A stretch of 32,985 nucleotides of DNA from a virus, in the IMG/VR virus record IMGVR_UViG_3300025889_000510, positions 1 to 32,985 of that record. One strand, 5' to 3'. This document shows, piece after piece, positions 21,287 through 28,605 of this stretch (position 1 is its first letter; each line of letters starts with the position of its first letter). Position numbers and translations under genes: made by a program. The notes beneath the pieces were generated by a model. The model was not told where the DNA came from. It made no database searches and saw only the letters and a list, made by a program, of their open reading frames with translations.

Positions 21287-21490
21287 ATGTCTGAAAGCAA
21301 TAAAGTATTTTTAAACACTTATGAGCTGGCGAAACGCTGGAACAAAAGTCCAAGAACATTAGAGAATTGGAGAGGTAAAAACCAAGGGCCTAACTATTAC
21401 AAGATAGGTGGTAAGGTTTTATACGAACTTTCTGAAATAGAAACTTTAGAAAAGGATTCATACATTTCTAATGGCGCACGCACTAGCTAG
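21287..21490 (+). CDS. AlpA/excisionase-like HTH protein
   Basis: A 67-residue protein. I chose the ATG at 21287 (AAGGGAG nine bases upstream) over an in-frame ATG at 21176, which would run through the divergent gene and its promoter. The sequence YELAKRWNKSPRTLENWRGKNQGPNYYKIGGKVLYELSEIETL is the winged helix of the HTH_17/MerR-like type, shown here by its parts AKRWNKSPRTLENWR and KIGGKVLY. Such small proteins serve as excisionases or transcription activators in integrated elements. It is the first gene of the rightward early operon and could couple excision to early expression. It overlaps the next gene by 20 bases. Confidence 0.75.
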   Translation: MSESNKVFLNTYELAKRWNKSPRTLENWRGKNQGPNYYKIGGKVLYELSEIETLEKDSYISNGARTS

Positions 21491-22196
21491 TCCATCATCA
21501 GCTGATCGCTGGTTTAATTGTCCAGGCTCTGTATTAGCTAATGCAGACATGCCATACGAAACCAATTTAGCTGCTGCAAACGGAACACTTATTCACCACA
21601 TGACAGAGATGTTATTAAAGGATCGTCTACGCGATATGACATTGCGCGATTATTGGTTGGATAGAAAAGAAGTCATAGAAGATTTTGAAATTGAAATAGA
21701 CGAAGAAATGATTAACTGCGCGGAAGTTTATGTTGACTATATATTAAAGAGAGAAGAAGAACTTGGTGCGCGGAAAGTAATAGAAGAAAAGGTTTACCTA
21801 AACGAGATATCAGATAAATGCTATGGAACTGCTGACTGTATCTTGTTAGCAGAAAATAGAATTTGTGTTATTGATTTAAAGTCTGGTAAATGGGCTGTAG
21901 ATCCTGTGAAAAATAAACAGTTAATGATTTATGGTTTAGGAGCATTAACCAGATACGGAGGTGGCAATCCTGATATCACTATGGAGCTGACTATTGTGCA
22001 ACCAAAAGTTAGCAGCCCTATAAAAACATTTGAGATTTCAGCACCCAATCTTGTGCATTGGGGCTTCAACGATTTGAAGCCAGCTATTGATGCTTGCTTT
22101 GAAGAAAACCCACAGTTTGTTGCAGGGGATCATTGTAGATTCTGTGCATTTAAACCCAACTGTGATGCTTATAAAAAATATTACGAGGAGAAATAA
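21471..22196 (+). CDS. DUF2800 / Cas4-AddB-like nuclease with four-cysteine site
   Basis: A 241-residue protein. It has the RecB-like nuclease core: GTAD at 119-122 (D122), then strand CVIDLKSGK with D135 and K137, and KNKQLMIYGLGAL (about 147-159). One cysteine near the N-terminus (C17, WFNCPGS) and three near the C-terminus (C222, C225, C231 in HCRFCAFKPNC) match the four-cysteine iron-sulphur site of Cas4 and AddB nucleases. The family is DUF2800. It should act as an exonuclease making single strands for recombination, with the Sak4-like ATPase and SSB-like protein downstream as partners. Confidence 0.85.
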   Translation: MAHALASPSSADRWFNCPGSVLANADMPYETNLAAANGTLIHHMTEMLLKDRLRDMTLRDYWLDRKEVIEDFEIEIDEEMINCAEVYVDYILKREEELGARKVIEEKVYLNEISDKCYGTADCILLAENRICVIDLKSGKWAVDPVKNKQLMIYGLGALTRYGGGNPDITMELTIVQPKVSSPIKTFEISAPNLVHWGFNDLKPAIDACFEENPQFVAGDHCRFCAFKPNCDAYKKYYEEK

Positions 22197-22478
22197 ATGT
22201 CCGAAGAAAATAAAAAGCAACCATTAACTTTTACTTTTGATGAAGATGGTCAAGAGTATTTGGTTGATGATTTAAGTGATGAAAATAAATTGCTTTATAA
22301 CCAAGTGGTGTTTAGCAATAACCAGCGAAATGATTTTTTAAATCAAAGAGCTAAAGTCAATTTTGAATTACAAGTAGAAATTGAAAAGTGTGAGCTTTAT
22401 TCACAACATAAAAGCAATCTATTAAAAGATGCTGTTGAAGGCGGTGATAAAGAAGAAACTGTTGAGGTTGTTCAATGA
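22197..22478 (+). CDS. Small acidic protein between nuclease and ATPase
   Basis: A 93-residue acidic protein. The pattern LTFTFDEDGQEYLVDDLSDENKLLYNQV, seen in parts at about 10-37, matches a short domain I recall as DUF6447, in which a small strand pair is followed by a helical region. The remainder is helical (RAKVNFELQVEIEKCELYSQ) with an acidic C-terminus. It starts right after the nuclease stop and overlaps the ATPase start by four bases (ATGA). It may be a small partner of the recombination proteins. Confidence 0.6.
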   Translation: MSEENKKQPLTFTFDEDGQEYLVDDLSDENKLLYNQVVFSNNQRNDFLNQRAKVNFELQVEIEKCELYSQHKSNLLKDAVEGGDKEETVEVVQ

Positions 22479-23206
22479 GTTTAGCTGCAATCAGAAAGAA
22501 AGCGAAACTTAAACCACCTATCATGGTTTTATATGGCCCAGGTGGTATTGGTAAAACAACTTTTGCTGCAAGCATGGGTAATACAATCATTGTGCAATCC
22601 GAAGATGGTATCGGAAAGATTGAGTGCGATCATTTTCCTGTTGCTAAAGATTGGAATACTTTTATAAACAATTTGAATGAATTACTTACAGAAGATCACA
22701 ATTACAAAGTGGTCTGTATTGATTCTTTAGATTGGTGTGAAACTCTATTGTGGGAACATGTATGTGAAGAAAATGGTTGGGCGCAGATAGATACACCTGC
22801 TTATGGTAAAGGTTATGTAGCTGCTCTCAATGGTTGGAAAGAATATGTGGAACTTCTTAATAAACTTAGAGATGAGAAAGGCATGTCTGTACTACAGATT
22901 GCTCATAACCAAATCAAAAGATATGAAGATCCATCACAAGAGCCACACGATAGACATGAAATTAAATTACATAGAAAAGCTGCTGACTTGATTGTTGAAC
23001 ATTCAGATGCAGTATTTTTCTGTAACTACAAACTTGGGACTGTACAGGTCAAAGGCAAAGGCGGAGGTATGACAACCAAAACCATTGCTGGTGACAGAAA
23101 GATCTTTACAGAACAAGCACCTGGTTATCTAGCGAAGAATCGTTATGGTTTACCAAGTGAAATGCCTATGGATTGGCAAGCAATCCGTGAGGAAATGATC
23201 AAGTGA
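22475..23206 (+). CDS. Sak4-like AAA ATPase (single-strand annealing / recombinase)
   Basis: A 243-residue ATPase of the AAA_24 type. Walker A is GPGGIGKT (21-28), Walker B ends with D83 in VVCIDSLDW. The size and the order IIVQSEDG, SLDW, SVLQIAHNQIKRYEDP and the late DAVFFCNY match phage Sak4-type RecA-like proteins, which promote annealing or strand exchange with an SSB. The gene lies between the Cas4-like nuclease and the SSB-like gene, making a full recombination set. It shares ATGA with the small gene before it and GTGA with the one after. Confidence 0.82.
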   Translation: MSLAAIRKKAKLKPPIMVLYGPGGIGKTTFAASMGNTIIVQSEDGIGKIECDHFPVAKDWNTFINNLNELLTEDHNYKVVCIDSLDWCETLLWEHVCEENGWAQIDTPAYGKGYVAALNGWKEYVELLNKLRDEKGMSVLQIAHNQIKRYEDPSQEPHDRHEIKLHRKAADLIVEHSDAVFFCNYKLGTVQVKGKGGGMTTKTIAGDRKIFTEQAPGYLAKNRYGLPSEMPMDWQAIREEMIK

Positions 23207-23420: not shown

Positions 23421-23882
23421 ATGGACTTAAAAAATAGATTTGAAGGTCTTGTGCCTATGGCGCATGAATCAGAAAAGGTAAAACCTGGTAGATACAATTT
23501 GCAAATTGTTGGCGATAGCGAAATGCAAAATGATAGAGGTTGGGCTGGATGTAAAATTCAATTCCAACTTTTGCCAAAAAAAATACCTATTGGACACTTA
23601 ATAACTATTGCGCATGAAAATCCAAAATATGTGCAATGGGGATTTGAGGAACTTGAAAAACTATCTATAGCTGCTGGCTTTGATTCCATTGTTGGTGATA
23701 CAAGCCAACTACATGGCAAAGTCGTGAGCTGTAGCATTAAGTTAAATGATGGTGATTATCCTGAACTTGATTCTAAATTTGGTAATTCTTTTAAACCTGC
23801 TATAGAGGAAGAAAAACCTGTAGCAGTTAAAAAGGAGAAACCAAGTGTTAGCACGGAAGAATCAGACGAAATACCATTTTAA
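23421..23882 (+). CDS. DUF669-like single-strand DNA-binding protein
   Basis: A 153-residue protein with TAGGGAG ahead of the ATG. The body is strand-rich (RYNLQIVGDSEMQND, GWAGCKIQFQLLPKK, GKVVSCSIKLNDGDYPEL), followed by a charged linker and the tip ESDEIPF. An acidic linker ending in D-x-I-P-F is the hallmark of SSB tails, which dock partner proteins. With the Sak4-like ATPase and the Cas4-like nuclease nearby, an SSB role is well supported. The body resembles DUF669 proteins of phages. An internal ribosome site (AGGAG at 23832) near its end serves the next gene, which starts inside it. Confidence 0.78.
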   Translation: MDLKNRFEGLVPMAHESEKVKPGRYNLQIVGDSEMQNDRGWAGCKIQFQLLPKKIPIGHLITIAHENPKYVQWGFEELEKLSIAAGFDSIVGDTSQLHGKVVSCSIKLNDGDYPELDSKFGNSFKPAIEEEKPVAVKKEKPSVSTEESDEIPF

Positions 23883-24249
23883 TCCGAAGAAGTTTAGGCC
23901 TGCGCTGTGTGGATATTGTTTCCTCCCAGCGCAAAGCCCTAGGCTTCTGATAAACAGCGATAGCATTTATGGATGCTGTTGCAAAGAACATTTAGAACTT
24001 ATACGCGAGGGTAAGAAATTGAAAAGAGTAGCAGTAGCTTGTGATGAAGGGATTGATTATACAATCAACGCAAGCAAACAATCTTATTTAGAAATATCTA
24101 AAAAGAATAAATCCTACATTCTCCACGAGTGGAGCAGAGAGGATCGTGAACTCTTTTACCTACGCATAGTTGATGCTTATTTGACTTGGGCTAATGAACA
24201 AGCAAGAACAGGCAAACTAGAGAAGGTAATAGAGGATGGATCTATCTAA
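23845..24249 (+). CDS. Zinc-binding-motif protein
   Basis: A 134-residue protein with a GTG start at 23845, eight bases after AGGAG (23832-23836), inside the SSB-like gene. The N-terminus carries C22-x2-C25 (CGYC) and a second cluster CCCKEH at about 44-49, a likely zinc site. A helical middle (CKEHLELIREGKKLKRVAV) and a C-terminal part with DRELFYLRIVDAYLTWANEQARTGK follow. The function is unknown; place suggests replication or recombination. It overlaps the primase-helicase start by 14 bases. Confidence 0.65.
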   Translation: MLARKNQTKYHFNPKKFRPALCGYCFLPAQSPRLLINSDSIYGCCCKEHLELIREGKKLKRVAVACDEGIDYTINASKQSYLEISKKNKSYILHEWSREDRELFYLRIVDAYLTWANEQARTGKLEKVIEDGSI

Positions 24250-26062
24250 GTATTTAGCAAACTATAAAGAGCAATCCAAAGTCAGGATGCCAGATCTCAA
24301 TGATTTGGTAGGGGAGTTAAGCAATCATGGTCTGCAAGTAGATCATCTGGACACAAGTGGAAACTTGGTGCGCGTGCGCGTGAGCGAGGGGCTAGGATCT
24401 AAAGCAGATAGATCCAATCAGAAATCAGGTTGGTATGTTGTTAATGAATTATCAGGTAATTACTTTGCTACCTTTGGTAATTGGAAAACAGGATTTGAAG
24501 GCAAATGGAGTTCTATAGATACCAGCACACTTAGCCCTGTAGATACCGCTAAATTAAAACAACAAATGGCGGAGGCTCAACAGAGGCTGGAAGAAATTAA
24601 GAAAAATAGGAACGAGGAAGTGGCAACAGAGGTAAACGAACTCTTTGCATCTTACAAAAATACGACTGAACATGAGTATCTCACAAATAAAAAAGTTAAA
24701 AGCTATGGTTTAAAAACAGATCCAAATGATAGTTTGGTTGTTCCTGTGCATAATATCACAGGGGACATTCGTTCACTACAGTACATTGATAAAAATGGCA
24801 ATAAAAAGTTTTATCCAGGCGGAGAGATCAAAGGCAATATGTTTTGTCTTGGTTTCAGCGTGGATGAATTACCACATATAAAAGAGCTTATCGTTGTCGA
24901 GGGTTACGCAACTGCTGCGACTGTATATGAAGCTACTAAGATACCAACCGCGTGTGTTTTTTCTGCAAACTTTGGGATGAGGGCAGTTAAAAACATCAGA
25001 GGAGTATCACAATGCAAAATATACATAGCCCTAGACAACGATATAAGCTCTGTGGGACAACGAAATACACAAGACATAGCAAATGCCTACCCTAATTGTT
25101 TCAAGCGCATACCGAGCATTACAGGCGATTACAATGATATGTATTTAGAACACGGATTAGAGCGTGTTGCTAAAGAAATCATAACCAGCAGTTTAGGTAT
25201 TACAAGATTCTCTATAAAACGCCTAACAGGCGAGCCACCCAAGCGTGAATTTCTTGTGGATAAGTTTTTAGAAAAAGGTAAGCCATCTATATTTGCAGGT
25301 ATTGGTGGCGTGGGTAAATCTATGTTGGCCTTAGATCTTGCATTAAAAGTTACTAGAGGTCATGGCACTTGGTTTGGTCATCCTATTATTAAATCTGGTA
25401 ATGTGGTTTATATAAGCGCAGAGGATGATCAACACGAATTGCATAGAAGGATTATGGCTTTAGATCCTGAACAAAAAAGGTATGACACTTTATATGATAC
25501 TTTTGCCTATACCATTCCTGATACCGAACAAACTATGACACTTCTTAGAGATAACAAAGATGGTTTACATATCACCGAACAAGCCAATGAATTAATAGAT
25601 GAGCTAGGCAAGATTAACGATCTGGCCTTAGTGATTCTTGATCCGATCCAAGCAATGAGTGCAGCTCCGTTGTCGTCAAGCAATGAAGCAGCACAATTAT
25701 ATGGTCAGCTGTGCGCCTCTATCTCCTCGCAATTAGGAGCAAGCGTTATGAGCATCCATCACATGAGTAAAGCTGCTCTTTCTCATACTGATGATCCTAT
25801 GCTTGCACGCTCCTATATTAGAGGCGCAACAGCCCTTGTGGATTCAGCACGCCAGGCATTTGGTCTGTGGCTTGCGAAAGAGGAGGAAGCAGAGCGCATC
25901 TGCATTGATGAGGGCGTAGAGTTTGATCCTTTGCGCGTGGTGCGCGGTGGGGTGGTGAAATCTAACTCTAGCGAGATAGACACTAAAGTAAAAACTCTCT
26001 TTAGGCGCGGTGCGGTGCTAGAGCCTTATGAGGAAAACAAATTTAACTTCGGAGAATTTTAA
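24236..26062 (+). CDS. Primase-helicase (Toprim plus RepA-like AAA_25 ATPase)
   Basis: A 608-residue two-domain protein. Residues about 160-310 form a Toprim-type module: VVEGYATAATVYEA (E222), CVFSANFGMRAVKNI, then IALDNDI with D267 and D269, the metal-binding triad of plasmid-type primases. Residues about 345-590 are a hexameric helicase-like ATPase: Walker A GIGGVGKS (355-362), VVYISAEDD, Walker B end at D469 in LVILDPIQ, and MSIHHMSK as a sensor. No N-terminal zinc finger is seen. It should start and unwind replication forks. A CG-rich patch near 25,900-26,020 stands out. It precedes the methyltransferase (TAATG overlap). Confidence 0.85.
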   Translation: MDLSKYLANYKEQSKVRMPDLNDLVGELSNHGLQVDHLDTSGNLVRVRVSEGLGSKADRSNQKSGWYVVNELSGNYFATFGNWKTGFEGKWSSIDTSTLSPVDTAKLKQQMAEAQQRLEEIKKNRNEEVATEVNELFASYKNTTEHEYLTNKKVKSYGLKTDPNDSLVVPVHNITGDIRSLQYIDKNGNKKFYPGGEIKGNMFCLGFSVDELPHIKELIVVEGYATAATVYEATKIPTACVFSANFGMRAVKNIRGVSQCKIYIALDNDISSVGQRNTQDIANAYPNCFKRIPSITGDYNDMYLEHGLERVAKEIITSSLGITRFSIKRLTGEPPKREFLVDKFLEKGKPSIFAGIGGVGKSMLALDLALKVTRGHGTWFGHPIIKSGNVVYISAEDDQHELHRRIMALDPEQKRYDTLYDTFAYTIPDTEQTMTLLRDNKDGLHITEQANELIDELGKINDLALVILDPIQAMSAAPLSSSNEAAQLYGQLCASISSQLGASVMSIHHMSKAALSHTDDPMLARSYIRGATALVDSARQAFGLWLAKEEEAERICIDEGVEFDPLRVVRGGVVKSNSSEIDTKVKTLFRRGAVLEPYEENKFNFGEF

Positions 26063-27240
26063 TGAAAGTATTAAGTTTATTTGATGGGATGAGCTGCGGA
26101 CAGATAGCTCTTAATCGTCTTGGCATTAAAGTGGACACTTACTATGCGAGCGAGATTGATAAATACGCTATGGAGATTACGCAAAAGAACTTTCCAAAAA
26201 CCATACAAATTGGGGATGTGTGCGCGGTGCGTGGGGAAGATTATCAAGATGTGGATTTAATATTAGCAGGCTCACCATGTCAGGGATTTAGTTTTGCAGG
26301 AAAGCAATTAGCATTTAATGATCCAAGATCTGCACTTTTCTTTGAATTTATTAGGCTGTTAAAAGAAATTAAGCCGAAATATTTTTTATTAGAAAATGTA
26401 AAAATGAAAAAAGAATACTTACAGATTATCAGCGAGCAAGTATCAGCCTGTTACCCAGAGATACCATTTGGTATTGAGCCTATCTTTATTAATAGTTCTT
26501 TGGTTAGCGCACAATCAAGACAAAGATATTATTGGACTAATATTCCAAACATCACCCAACCAGAGGAAAGAGGGATTGTGTTAAGGGATATATTGGAAGA
26601 AGATCCAAGCGAAAACCCTGTTAAAGATACTGCAAGAAACCAAAGGCATTATAAAAATATTGATGAAAAGTCATTGTGTATGACTGCCACTATGTATAAG
26701 GGTGCAGGTAACAATGGTATGACTTTAGTTCCAATAAGGGCAGGCGCCTGGAGAGGGAGATCATTAGATGAAAGCGGTAAAAATGTTAAATGGAAAGAAA
26801 CTACTCCAAAGCAAATGCTAGAAACTAGAAAAGATGAAAAGAGTAACGCTGTTAGTACCTTCACCAAAGATAATGTAGTTGTTACTTTTTCTGAAGATAG
26901 AATAAATAAATTTAAAGAAACATTAAAAGATGATCCAAAACCATCAGCAAATGGGATTATACAATTAAACAATCCAAGTCATTCAAGCAGTAGAGTTTAT
27001 TCTCCAGAGGGTAAATCTCCAACATTGATGGCTGGTAATAGTGGTGGTGGAAAAGAGCCAGTAAAAATTAATGATGGTGTTTACTGGCGAAAATTAACTC
27101 CTGTTGAGTGCGAACGATTACAAACAGTGCCAGATAATTACACCGAAGGCGTATCCAATACCCAACGCTATAAAATGCTTGGTAACGGATGGACTGTGGA
27201 AGTTATCTGCCACATTCTTAAAAATATGGAGAGCGTATGA
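26062..27240 (+). CDS. C5-cytosine DNA methyltransferase
   Basis: A 392-residue enzyme. Motif I is LFDGMSCG (6-13), motif IV GSPCQGFS with the catalytic C73, motif VI ENV (111-113), motif VIII QSRQRYYW (151-158), and the C-terminal motifs IX (RKLTPVECERLQ) and X (LGNGWTVEV). The target-recognition region (about 160-330) is long and unusual, with no match I recognise, so the target site cannot be read. No restriction enzyme gene is near, so it is an orphan enzyme, presumably protecting phage DNA from host restriction or marking it. It is TAATG-coupled to the helicase and ATGA-coupled to the next small gene. Confidence 0.92.
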   Translation: MKVLSLFDGMSCGQIALNRLGIKVDTYYASEIDKYAMEITQKNFPKTIQIGDVCAVRGEDYQDVDLILAGSPCQGFSFAGKQLAFNDPRSALFFEFIRLLKEIKPKYFLLENVKMKKEYLQIISEQVSACYPEIPFGIEPIFINSSLVSAQSRQRYYWTNIPNITQPEERGIVLRDILEEDPSENPVKDTARNQRHYKNIDEKSLCMTATMYKGAGNNGMTLVPIRAGAWRGRSLDESGKNVKWKETTPKQMLETRKDEKSNAVSTFTKDNVVVTFSEDRINKFKETLKDDPKPSANGIIQLNNPSHSSSRVYSPEGKSPTLMAGNSGGGKEPVKINDGVYWRKLTPVECERLQTVPDNYTEGVSNTQRYKMLGNGWTVEVICHILKNMESV

Positions 27241-27314
27241 GCGACTTAATGATAACTAACTTAACTGTATTCCTGGCTGTGTTAGCTATATGGATGATAT
27301 GGAGGCAAGAATGA
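27237..27314 (+). CDS. Tiny single-membrane-segment peptide
   Basis: A 25-residue ORF (MSDLMITNLTVFLAVLAIWMIWRQE) that starts in ATGA with the methyltransferase and ends in ATGA with the next gene. Almost all of residues 5-21 is hydrophobic, ending in charged RQE, so it would be a membrane peptide. Both junctions are of the coupled type used throughout the operon, which supports it despite its size. Function unknown. Confidence 0.45.
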   Translation: MSDLMITNLTVFLAVLAIWMIWRQE

Positions 27315-27400
27315 AAGACGAATGTCCTAACTGTAATGGCTGTGGCACATTACCAACCAATGAAGTTTGCGAGTATTGCAACGGAACAGGGAGAGAGTGA
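27311..27400 (+). CDS. Tiny zinc-finger-type peptide
   Basis: A 29-residue ORF with two C-x2-C pairs of the form CPNCNGCG and CEYCNGTG, one near each end, as in the zinc centres of DnaJ-like zinc fingers. It is coupled by ATGA upstream and TGATG downstream. If translated it should bind one zinc ion. Function unknown; interest lies in its compact, plausible motif. Confidence 0.55.
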   Translation: MKDECPNCNGCGTLPTNEVCEYCNGTGRE

Positions 27401-27522
27401 TGTCAGGTAAAGGCGATAAACCAAGACCAATGAAAGATAGAGAAAGATTTGAAAAAGAATTTGATCGTATCTTTAACCAAAGAAAGGAGAAAAAAGATGG
27501 CAATAAAACTAATACTAAGTAG
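27400..27522 (+). CDS. Small phage protein of the MSGKGDKPRP type
   Basis: A 40-residue basic protein starting MSGKGDKPRP. This start, followed by a charged helix with R.RFEKEFDRIF, recurs in tiny proteins of many tailed phages. It is TGATG-coupled to the zinc peptide and overlaps the next gene by 26 bases. Function unknown. Confidence 0.65.
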   Translation: MSGKGDKPRPMKDRERFEKEFDRIFNQRKEKKDGNKTNTK

Positions 27523-27670
27523 CGAAGATAAAAACATTCTCAACGAAGCGCTAAGACAATACGCGCTCCCAACCATGAATAAAAAGAAGCAAACGCTCGA
27601 AGAAAAACGATTTGTGGCCCAGATCGAGAGCCTCATAATGCAGATAAATTTCAGCAAGGAAATACACTAA
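27497..27670 (+). CDS. Small helical protein, last gene before the origin-like region
   Basis: A 57-residue protein (MAIKLILSSEDKNILNEALRQYALPT...). I chose the ATG at 27497 because AAAGGAG lies eight bases upstream; an upstream in-frame start at 27449 has none. It is helical and basic. The next 240 bases carry the repeat region, so this gene closes the early operon. Function unknown. Confidence 0.65.
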   Translation: MAIKLILSSEDKNILNEALRQYALPTMNKKKQTLEEKRFVAQIESLIMQINFSKEIH

Positions 27671-27681
27671 TGAATGTTACT

Positions 27682-27757
27682 AACATATCCAATAACCTAG
27701 GCGAACATGTCCAACACCCTAGGCGAACATATCCAACGAAGGTAACTAACATATCCA
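27682..27757. repeat. Four iteron-like repeats at exact 22-bp pitch
   Basis: The core AACATATCCA begins at 27682, 27704 (AACATGTCCA), 27726 and 27748: a spacing of exactly 22 bases each time, near two helical turns. The first two units also share CCTAGGCG. The 22-base period is not a multiple of three, so these are DNA-level repeats, not coding ones. They end at an AT-rich stretch and precede a winged-helix protein gene. Confidence 0.85.
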
Positions 27758-27789
27758 TATATCCAATATATAAGAATTATATATGTATG

Positions 27790-27824
27790 AGAGAGGTAAA
27801 ATGCTGTCGCATTTTCCCCTCTCT
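27790..27824. other. Long hairpin in the origin-like region
   Basis: AGAGAGG (27790-27796) pairs with CCTCTCT (27818-27824), and AAAATGC (27798-27804) with GCATTTT (27809-27815), with a TGTC loop and a small bulge (one base against two): 14 pairs in all. No T run follows, so it is not a standard terminator. It could be an initiator or single-strand structure. Confidence 0.7.
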
Positions 27825-27879
27825 AAGCGCACTCGCGAAGTCTAACGCTCACTCGCGCACAAAGGTGGAATTAGGCGCA

Positions 27880-27896
27880 CTTGCGCGAAGCGCAAG
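27880..27896. other. Compact GC hairpin with GAA loop
   Basis: CTTGCGC and GCGCAAG form a perfect seven-base-pair stem closed by the three-base loop GAA, a very stable type in single-stranded DNA. It lies 16 bases before the winged-helix gene, so it could affect its translation or serve as a recognised structure in the origin. Confidence 0.65.
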
Positions 27897-27911
27897 CGCA
27901 GGGGGTGCGAG

Positions 27912-28352
27912 GTGAGAAGGGAGCAAAATTATTGGTGGATGACACCGACAGAGATAGACGATCCCAAGCGAAGCGGTTTAATCCGACTTAGCGCGGTGCG
28001 CGAGCAGAAAGACTTTGCGCATGTGCGGAATATTGTTTGGCGTTGGTATAGGCGCGAGGTGGCAGGGAGAACAGATCTTACGCCTAGCGCGAAGCTGTGT
28101 GCCTGGTCGCTAACGGAACGCTGGCGCTGGGAAACTTATTCTTCACACGATGCCATAGCGTATTACGCCAAAATGGTTGGTTTACATAGAAAGACCTGTG
28201 GGAGAGCTATTACCGAGTTAATAGAAAAAGAGGTGGTGTGGTGCGTGCTTGAAGATGAAAAGCGCAGGTTAAGAAAATCCCAGGCAGGTGGTAAAAAGCA
28301 CTTTTTATTGGTGGGGTTAGGCTATCTACTAAAGGAGGGAGAGTTAAGATAG
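27912..28352 (+). CDS. Winged-helix (HTH_36-like) protein, candidate replication initiator
   Basis: A 146-residue basic protein with a GTG start (27912); an in-frame ATG at 27939 is an alternative. The middle reads LTPSAKLCAWSLTERW, then SSHDAIAYYAKMVGLHRKTCGRAITELIEKEVVW, the helix-turn-helix and wing pattern common in plasmid replication proteins and phage replisome organisers. It lies directly after the iteron-like repeats, so it may bind them, as Rep proteins bind iterons, with the primase-helicase as the likely recruit. A role as a repressor is also possible. Codon use is GC-rich compared with the structural genes. Confidence 0.65.
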   Translation: MRREQNYWWMTPTEIDDPKRSGLIRLSAVREQKDFAHVRNIVWRWYRREVAGRTDLTPSAKLCAWSLTERWRWETYSSHDAIAYYAKMVGLHRKTCGRAITELIEKEVVWCVLEDEKRRLRKSQAGGKKHFLLVGLGYLLKEGELR

Positions 28353-28375
28353 CCTATTAATACCCCATGAAAGGA

Positions 28376-28421
28376 GGGCGCGCGCTCTGTGTGTGGGTGG
28401 GGGGATGTCGAACACGCGCCC
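28376..28421. repeat. Inverted repeat between convergent genes
   Basis: GGGCGCG (28376-28382) and CGCGCCC (28415-28421) form seven pairs around a 32-base G/T-rich loop that includes a GGGTGGGGGG run. It separates the rightward winged-helix gene from the leftward small-gene operon and may act as a bidirectional terminator, but there is no T run on either side, so it could also be a structured or processing site. Confidence 0.5.
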
Positions 28422-28425
28422 AAAA

Positions 28426-28605
28426 CTAGATGATTCTTCCGTTCTTGGTTACTACTGCGAGTTTATCTCCGTATTGGTCTTTTAAGATCCAATCGCCCTC
28501 AGTAGTTTGTATTGATGTTTCTCTGCTAGCGTAGGGTAACTCTCCTATATAACCTCTATCGCGTAGACTGCAATGGTATTTGTGTTCCGCCATTTCGTAA
28601 GTCAT
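28426..28605 (-). CDS. Small protein, end of leftward operon
   Basis: A 59-residue protein (MTYEMAEHKYHCSLRDRGYIG...) with TGAGG ahead of its ATG. It has a C-terminal strand pattern (DWILKDQYGDKLAVVTKNGRII) like a small SH3-type barrel, and its start overlaps the upstream gene's stop. It is too small to carry an obvious active site. Function unknown. Confidence 0.6.
   Translation of the reverse strand: MTYEMAEHKYHCSLRDRGYIGELPYASRETSIQTTEGDWILKDQYGDKLAVVTKNGRII

Follow-up and report, generated by a model that had tools for sequence, protein, structure and literature searches.

Iteron plasmids carry two to seven tandem repeats in their origins, mostly of 17–22 bp, the 22-bp length being found in R6K and pPS10 (PMC4980987). 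In plasmid RSF1010 the iterons are bound by RepC, after which RepA unwinds the DNA and exposes the ssiA and ssiB stem-loops, 3' of which the primase starts (PMC4234260), a replication mechanism also treated in PMC4538821. The lambda origin combines four iterons and an AT-rich tract with the phage-encoded initiator O (PMC7466680), while the alpha protein of phage P4 unites a Toprim primase and a helicase in one protein and is accompanied by origin repeats (PMC4234260). In the PLE satellite of Vibrio cholerae, RepA and the origin form an exchangeable module of matched specificity (PMC8263062).

The sequence analysed here is the 32,985-base viral record IMGVR_UViG_3300025889_000510, the whole of which is referred to as the window. 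Comparison with related loci suggests that positions 27682–27824 are probably a phage iteron-type replication origin and that the 146-aa winged-helix protein encoded downstream (27912–28352, + strand) is its initiator. This is the best reading because of the position within a replication module, the conserved AT-rich element and the iteron layout. An origin at this place had already been proposed by a sequence-only reading, of which the 22-bp pitch and the predicted iteron reader held up, while the predicted GC-skew minimum and the inclusion of a GC hairpin did not.

The locus resembles the oriV of RSF1010 (IncQ) in its tandem iterons, hairpins, separate initiator and RepA-type hexameric helicase, but differs in that its Toprim primase is fused to the helicase, RSF1010 having the separate archaeo-eukaryotic-type RepB', as well as in its pitch of 22 bp and the two hairpins that follow the phage anchor. 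A phage-encoded candidate initiator, four iterons, an AT-rich tract and weak matches to phage_O_Nterm are shared with lambda, whereas the lambda iterons are located inside the O gene and those described here upstream of the winged-helix gene, and whereas O recruits the host DnaB via P, the phage of the window encodes its own primase-helicase. Tandem repeats, a winged-helix initiator and an AT-rich opening element are also known from the iteron plasmids R6K, pPS10, F and RK2; however, RepE-type initiators have two winged-helix domains and the phage model has one, and the phage region lacks an exact DnaA box. The PLE is similar in having initiator and origin as an exchangeable matched module, but it is a satellite parasitising a phage, whose three semi-palindromic repeats are each about 30 bp long and whose initiator is of the RepA_N type. 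P4 likewise combines a single-protein Toprim primase-helicase with origin repeats, but there alpha itself binds the origin, whereas in the window a separate gene encodes the DNA-binding protein and the helicase resembles RepA.

The array consists of four AACATRTCCA cores on the + strand, starting at 27682, 27704, 27726 and 27748, exactly where the sequence-only reading had placed them at a 22-bp pitch, and no further mismatch-free copy of the core exists elsewhere in the window. Iterons 1 (27682–27703, AACATATCCAATAACCTAGGCG) and 2 (27704–27725, AACATGTCCAACACCCTAGGCG) are full 22-bp units, iteron 3 (27726–27747) retains the core AACATATCCA and the pitch but has a diverged tail, and iteron 4 (27748–27757) is a core alone that continues directly into the anchor (TATATCC). 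Tandem Repeats Finder (TRF) reports a period of 22 with 2.5 copies and an 88% match, and the score observed for the 116-base block was reached by none of 2000 dinucleotide shuffles for lags between 14 and 40, which places the repeats beyond chance. The array therefore contains at least two tandem direct repeats of about 17–22 bp, as is expected of an iteron origin. It is the top-scoring short-period block of the whole window, the runners-up having periods that are mostly multiples of three; the period across the open reading frame that runs through the repeats (27670–27915) is not a multiple of three, and this frame matches no Pfam or PHROG family. No exact DnaA box (TTWTNCACA) is present in 27600–28360, and the six found in the window compare with 5.4 expected by chance; such boxes are frequent in iteron plasmids, although not universal.

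Relatives of the winged-helix protein are encoded at well over a hundred marine viral contig loci (some contigs being duplicated), the upstream DNA of which was cut out and reduced to 88 distinct regions. Their common layout comprises three to four repeats, an invariant TATCC, an AT-rich hairpin and then a second one, after which the winged-helix gene follows. Conservation of the pitch beside homologous genes had been named in advance as a way to check the origin proposal, and a period of 22 or 21 was indeed obtained for 87 of the 88 regions (best lag 22 in 69, 21 in 18 and 35 in one). Among the 17 iteron clusters, 14 had scores that no more than 1 of 2000 shuffles reached; the clusters of loci L011, L094 and L098, in which the units are degenerate or inverted, fail this direct-repeat test. 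In L094, L113, L121 and L122 the terminal iteron is inverted and abuts TATATCC (TTGTCGCATATATCC), the other units being mostly direct and the pitch kept, and in the clade of L006 the orientations TGTCCC and GGGACA are mixed. The only genome match is L116 (CAJQJC010000020.1), a Pelagibacter MAG contig of 39% GC carrying the cassette together with terminase and portal genes. It is probably a viral contig in a Pelagibacter bin, which makes the host assignment unsafe, and none of 297 other genomes of its group matched.

In the window, the anchor ATATCC occupies 27759–27764 (+ strand). Its TATCC was found in 88 of 88 distinct homologous regions, a count that is partly the result of selection, since TATCC served as the alignment anchor and the AT-rich hairpin was sought after it, so that the shuffle control is the actual test of the hairpin. 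This hairpin (27766–27784), which was absent from the list of elements drawn up in the earlier reading, has an 8-bp stem with the arms ATATATAA and TTATATAT and a GAA loop, and is located in a stretch (27750–27795) with an A+T content of about 80%. Each of the 48 distinct 26-mers downstream of the anchor forms a perfect stem, whereas 4.2 would be expected from shuffles; across relatives the stem has 6–9 bp and the loop 3–6 nt. All four Watson-Crick pair types are exchanged, in a compensatory manner at most positions, and G-T pairs number zero, an absence partly built in by the stem finder, which penalised mismatches. The conserved AT palindrome thus provides the AT-rich element expected beside iterons and is a candidate duplex-opening element.

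The 14-pair hairpin previously described at 27790–27824 folds as claimed, with an outer stem of 7 bp (27790–27796/27818–27824), a 1x2 internal loop, an inner stem of 7 bp (27798–27804/27809–27815) and the loop TGTC. Across relatives its mean z is −4.05, and G-T accounts for about 1% of 693 pairs (loop-closing pair excluded), these pairs, like those counted for the AT-rich hairpin, coming from related sequences and therefore not being independent. The scarcity of G-T mildly favours selection acting on DNA rather than on RNA. RNAalifold recovered no pairs from a MAFFT alignment because the variable loop lengths put the stems out of register; the evidence for the hairpins was therefore obtained from stems located in each individual sequence and from shuffles. 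No known RNA family was found in Rfam. An intrinsic terminator was considered and can be ruled out, as a T-run 3' of the second hairpin is found in none of the 88 regions, and the sole terminator-like site returned by the terminator scan is located away from it. Partial correlations of hairpin similarity with the primase-helicase (0.33) and with the winged-helix protein (0.26) are about equal. By analogy with ssiA and ssiB of RSF1010, our best guess is that this candidate replication structure serves as a primase start site.

A GC-rich spacer (27825–27911) separates the second hairpin from the winged-helix gene. The compact GC hairpin that had been counted among the elements of the origin does exist there (about 27880–27896), but the stretch is confined to the window's own clade and is outside the conserved cassette. 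The length of the spacer varies among relatives, and the words GCGC, GCAAGC and CACGC are abundant in it in the window's clade, in L011, L094 and others, possibly constituting a second degenerate repeat.

The cassette belongs to a replication and recombination module encoded on the + strand, which includes a PD-(D/E)XK exonuclease (DUF2800, 21471–22196), a Sak4-like ATPase (22475–23206), a probable single-strand DNA-binding protein (23421–23882, weak profile match) and a 608-aa Toprim primase fused to an RSF1010-RepA-like helicase (24236–26062). The latter had been described simply as a Toprim/AAA primase-helicase; its domains match Toprim_3 (E 6.3e-8) and AAA_25 (E 2.5e-35), and its helicase part is related to RSF1010 RepA (1g8y), by far the best PDB match of the AAA part (residues 331–579, E 4.7e-11). 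A C5 cytosine methyltransferase gene (26062–27240) separates the primase gene from the iterons as a cargo insertion, which only some relatives possess (e.g., L022, L077, L107 and L121). The order exonuclease, Sak4, SSB, primase-helicase, cargo where present, iterons, hairpins and winged helix was seen wherever the contig was long enough, with one exception in which the primase lies beyond the available stretch. Comparison establishes this synteny together with the repeats, their conserved pitch and the hairpins. A small open reading frame at 27312–27401 contains, as judged by eye, two CxxCxGxG-like motifs (CPNCNGCG and CEYCNGTG) resembling a DnaJ-type zinc finger. The window also encodes a tyrosine integrase. 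The cumulative GC-skew minimum predicted near 27.7 kb is absent, the skew instead being near its maximum at about 28.5 kb; as it tracks the coding direction, which changes at about 28.5 kb, it was discarded as an uninformative origin marker.

In four isolate phages, XX1924, CGphi29, 1N2-2 and RHph_Y3_1 (L161, L162, L163 and L164), the noncoding DNA that follows a RepA-like primase-helicase gene contains one short word at high density and in both orientations (GGTTCA, GGGGACA, GGTACA and GTTCCCA), at irregular spacing and with no winged-helix gene. These word-dense stretches are likely to be origins too.

The winged-helix gene begins about 155 b after the end of the iterons. Its product scores 15.5 bits against Pfam HTH_36, under the gathering cut-off of 25, which is passed by one relative (L058, 25.4), and some family members weakly match phage_O_Nterm (TIGR01610; 14 bits, under the curated cut-off of 45.5). 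Four PHROGs named replication initiation protein are matched, again weakly (best E 5e-4), by 14, 11, 9 and 6 of 15 family members. The AlphaFold2 model comprises one winged helix (pLDDT 82.6), for which a PDB fold search returned nothing more specific than generic winged helices (best Z 7.3) and a viral fold library returned phage HTH proteins, including a phage replication protein O. A sequence search for solved relatives gave no meaningful match, and the isolate-phage collection gave none at all, even with E values up to 1 allowed.

Evidence as to what this protein reads comes from the repeated words of its relatives; most of these words fit the pattern GNNACA, in one orientation or the other. 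Recognition helices of class NRK are paired with GGGACA (or TGGACA, CGGACA), those of class HRT..SR with GCTACA, of class SRR with GCGACA and of class T/ANRR with GGTACA, while the helix of the window, HRK, is paired with TGGATA/TGGACA; taken alone, this agreement could reflect descent, because each class is largely one lineage. Natural recombinants are more informative in this respect: the primase-helicases of L011 and L113 are 98.4% identical over the compared stretch, whereas their winged-helix proteins share 54% identity and the iteron words differ (GGGACA and GCGACA, respectively). In L122 and L123, the winged-helix proteins of which are about 92% identical, two substitutions in the recognition helix are accompanied by a change from TGCGACA to TGCGAA[GA] in every copy, the inverted terminal one included. 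A partial Mantel test on 32 dereplicated loci gave a correlation between iterons and winged helix of r 0.51 with the primase-helicase held constant (0 of 999 permutations), and of r 0.00 between iterons and primase-helicase when the winged helix was allowed for (448 of 999).

Since the iterons and the winged-helix gene adjoin, part of this co-inheritance is simple linkage, which can contribute to the L011/L113 and Mantel results but does not readily explain the switch between L122 and L123. The comparison thus establishes a linkage of word to recognition helix, and on these comparative grounds we conclude that the winged-helix protein is the predicted reader of the iterons, in support of the role originally suggested for it. 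A winged-helix protein encoded beside the iterons, as expected of an iteron origin, is indicated by both the fold model and the co-variation, and we propose that it acts as the initiator.

The most serious alternative is that the repeats are operators for the promoter of the winged-helix gene itself or for early genes, the hairpins being leader structures of mRNA, and that no origin exists here. Winged-helix folds belong mostly to transcription regulators, the best solved matches of the model in Foldseek are MarR-type regulators, and the array and hairpins are situated directly upstream of the gene. On the other hand, no sigma-70-like promoter was found in 27200–28500, the T-run is missing after the hairpin, the near absence of G-T wobble outside the loop-closing pair would be unusual for a conserved RNA stem, the position beside the primase-helicase module is constant and the PHROG profiles matched are those of replication initiators. 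We consider a purely regulatory array unlikely; the initiators of iteron plasmids also act as autorepressors, so that operator and origin roles can coexist.

It is considerably less probable that the primase-helicase itself binds the iterons, as P4 alpha does, with the winged-helix protein acting as an accessory regulator. Distant phages with an enzyme of the same type do carry dense words after its gene in the absence of this winged-helix gene, and their enzymes have a longer C-terminus, an extension which showed no profile similarity to the winged-helix protein. The window's enzyme, however, ends shortly past the AAA domain with no extra C-terminal domain seen, near-identical primase-helicases adjoin different iteron words, and iteron similarity is independent of this enzyme once the winged helix is taken into account. 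That the locus is instead a centromere-like partition site, belonging to a plasmid-like prophage and using the winged-helix protein as its adaptor, is hardly credible. Repeat arrays beside small DNA-binding proteins are typical of partition loci, and the lower ranks of the fold search do include a TubR fragment, but the surroundings of the cassette showed no recognisable partner of the ParA or TubZ type, the tyrosine integrase leads one to expect an integrated prophage and the cassette lies within the replication module.

Under the preferred reading, that of an iteron-type origin, the binding, opening, helicase loading, origin activity and hairpin roles may be envisaged as follows. Several copies of the winged-helix protein would bind the iterons from the same side of the double helix, 22 bp being close to two helical turns, and would help to open the adjoining AT-rich element, allowing the phage Toprim/RepA-like primase-helicase to load. 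Following strand separation, the second hairpin could fold in the exposed single strand and serve as a signal there, its likeliest role being that of the primase start site, and the primers would be extended by a host polymerase, which is proposed because no phage DNA polymerase was recognised among the window proteins scanned (a subset of the open reading frames).

In conclusion, iteron origins are already known and the marine-phage cassette would be a new version of them; the earlier reading was not aware of one described in this phage group, and we found none in the literature searched, which included few subscription journals. A wider generalisation is offered tentatively, as something possible rather than probable: a widely distributed group of uncultivated marine phages may carry a compact RSF1010-like replicon in which initiator and iterons together make up a specificity module that can be exchanged, the recognition helix reading GNNACA-type words and a few substitutions switching specificity with all iterons in step, the unit recombining against a near-constant primase-helicase and the two hairpins providing a primase start signal.

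For a group of marine phages whose initiator has no isolate representative in the collection searched, the analysis predicts an origin, an initiator and part of a recognition code. The near-identical pair L122/L123 makes this protein–DNA code testable by exchanging two residues and a small number of bases, and vectors might use the cassette as their replicon. If the origin reading is true, it gives a concrete reason why replication of two related phages in one cell is or is not possible, and the exchangeable specificity modules, if they are such, would set replication incompatibility among co-infecting phages.
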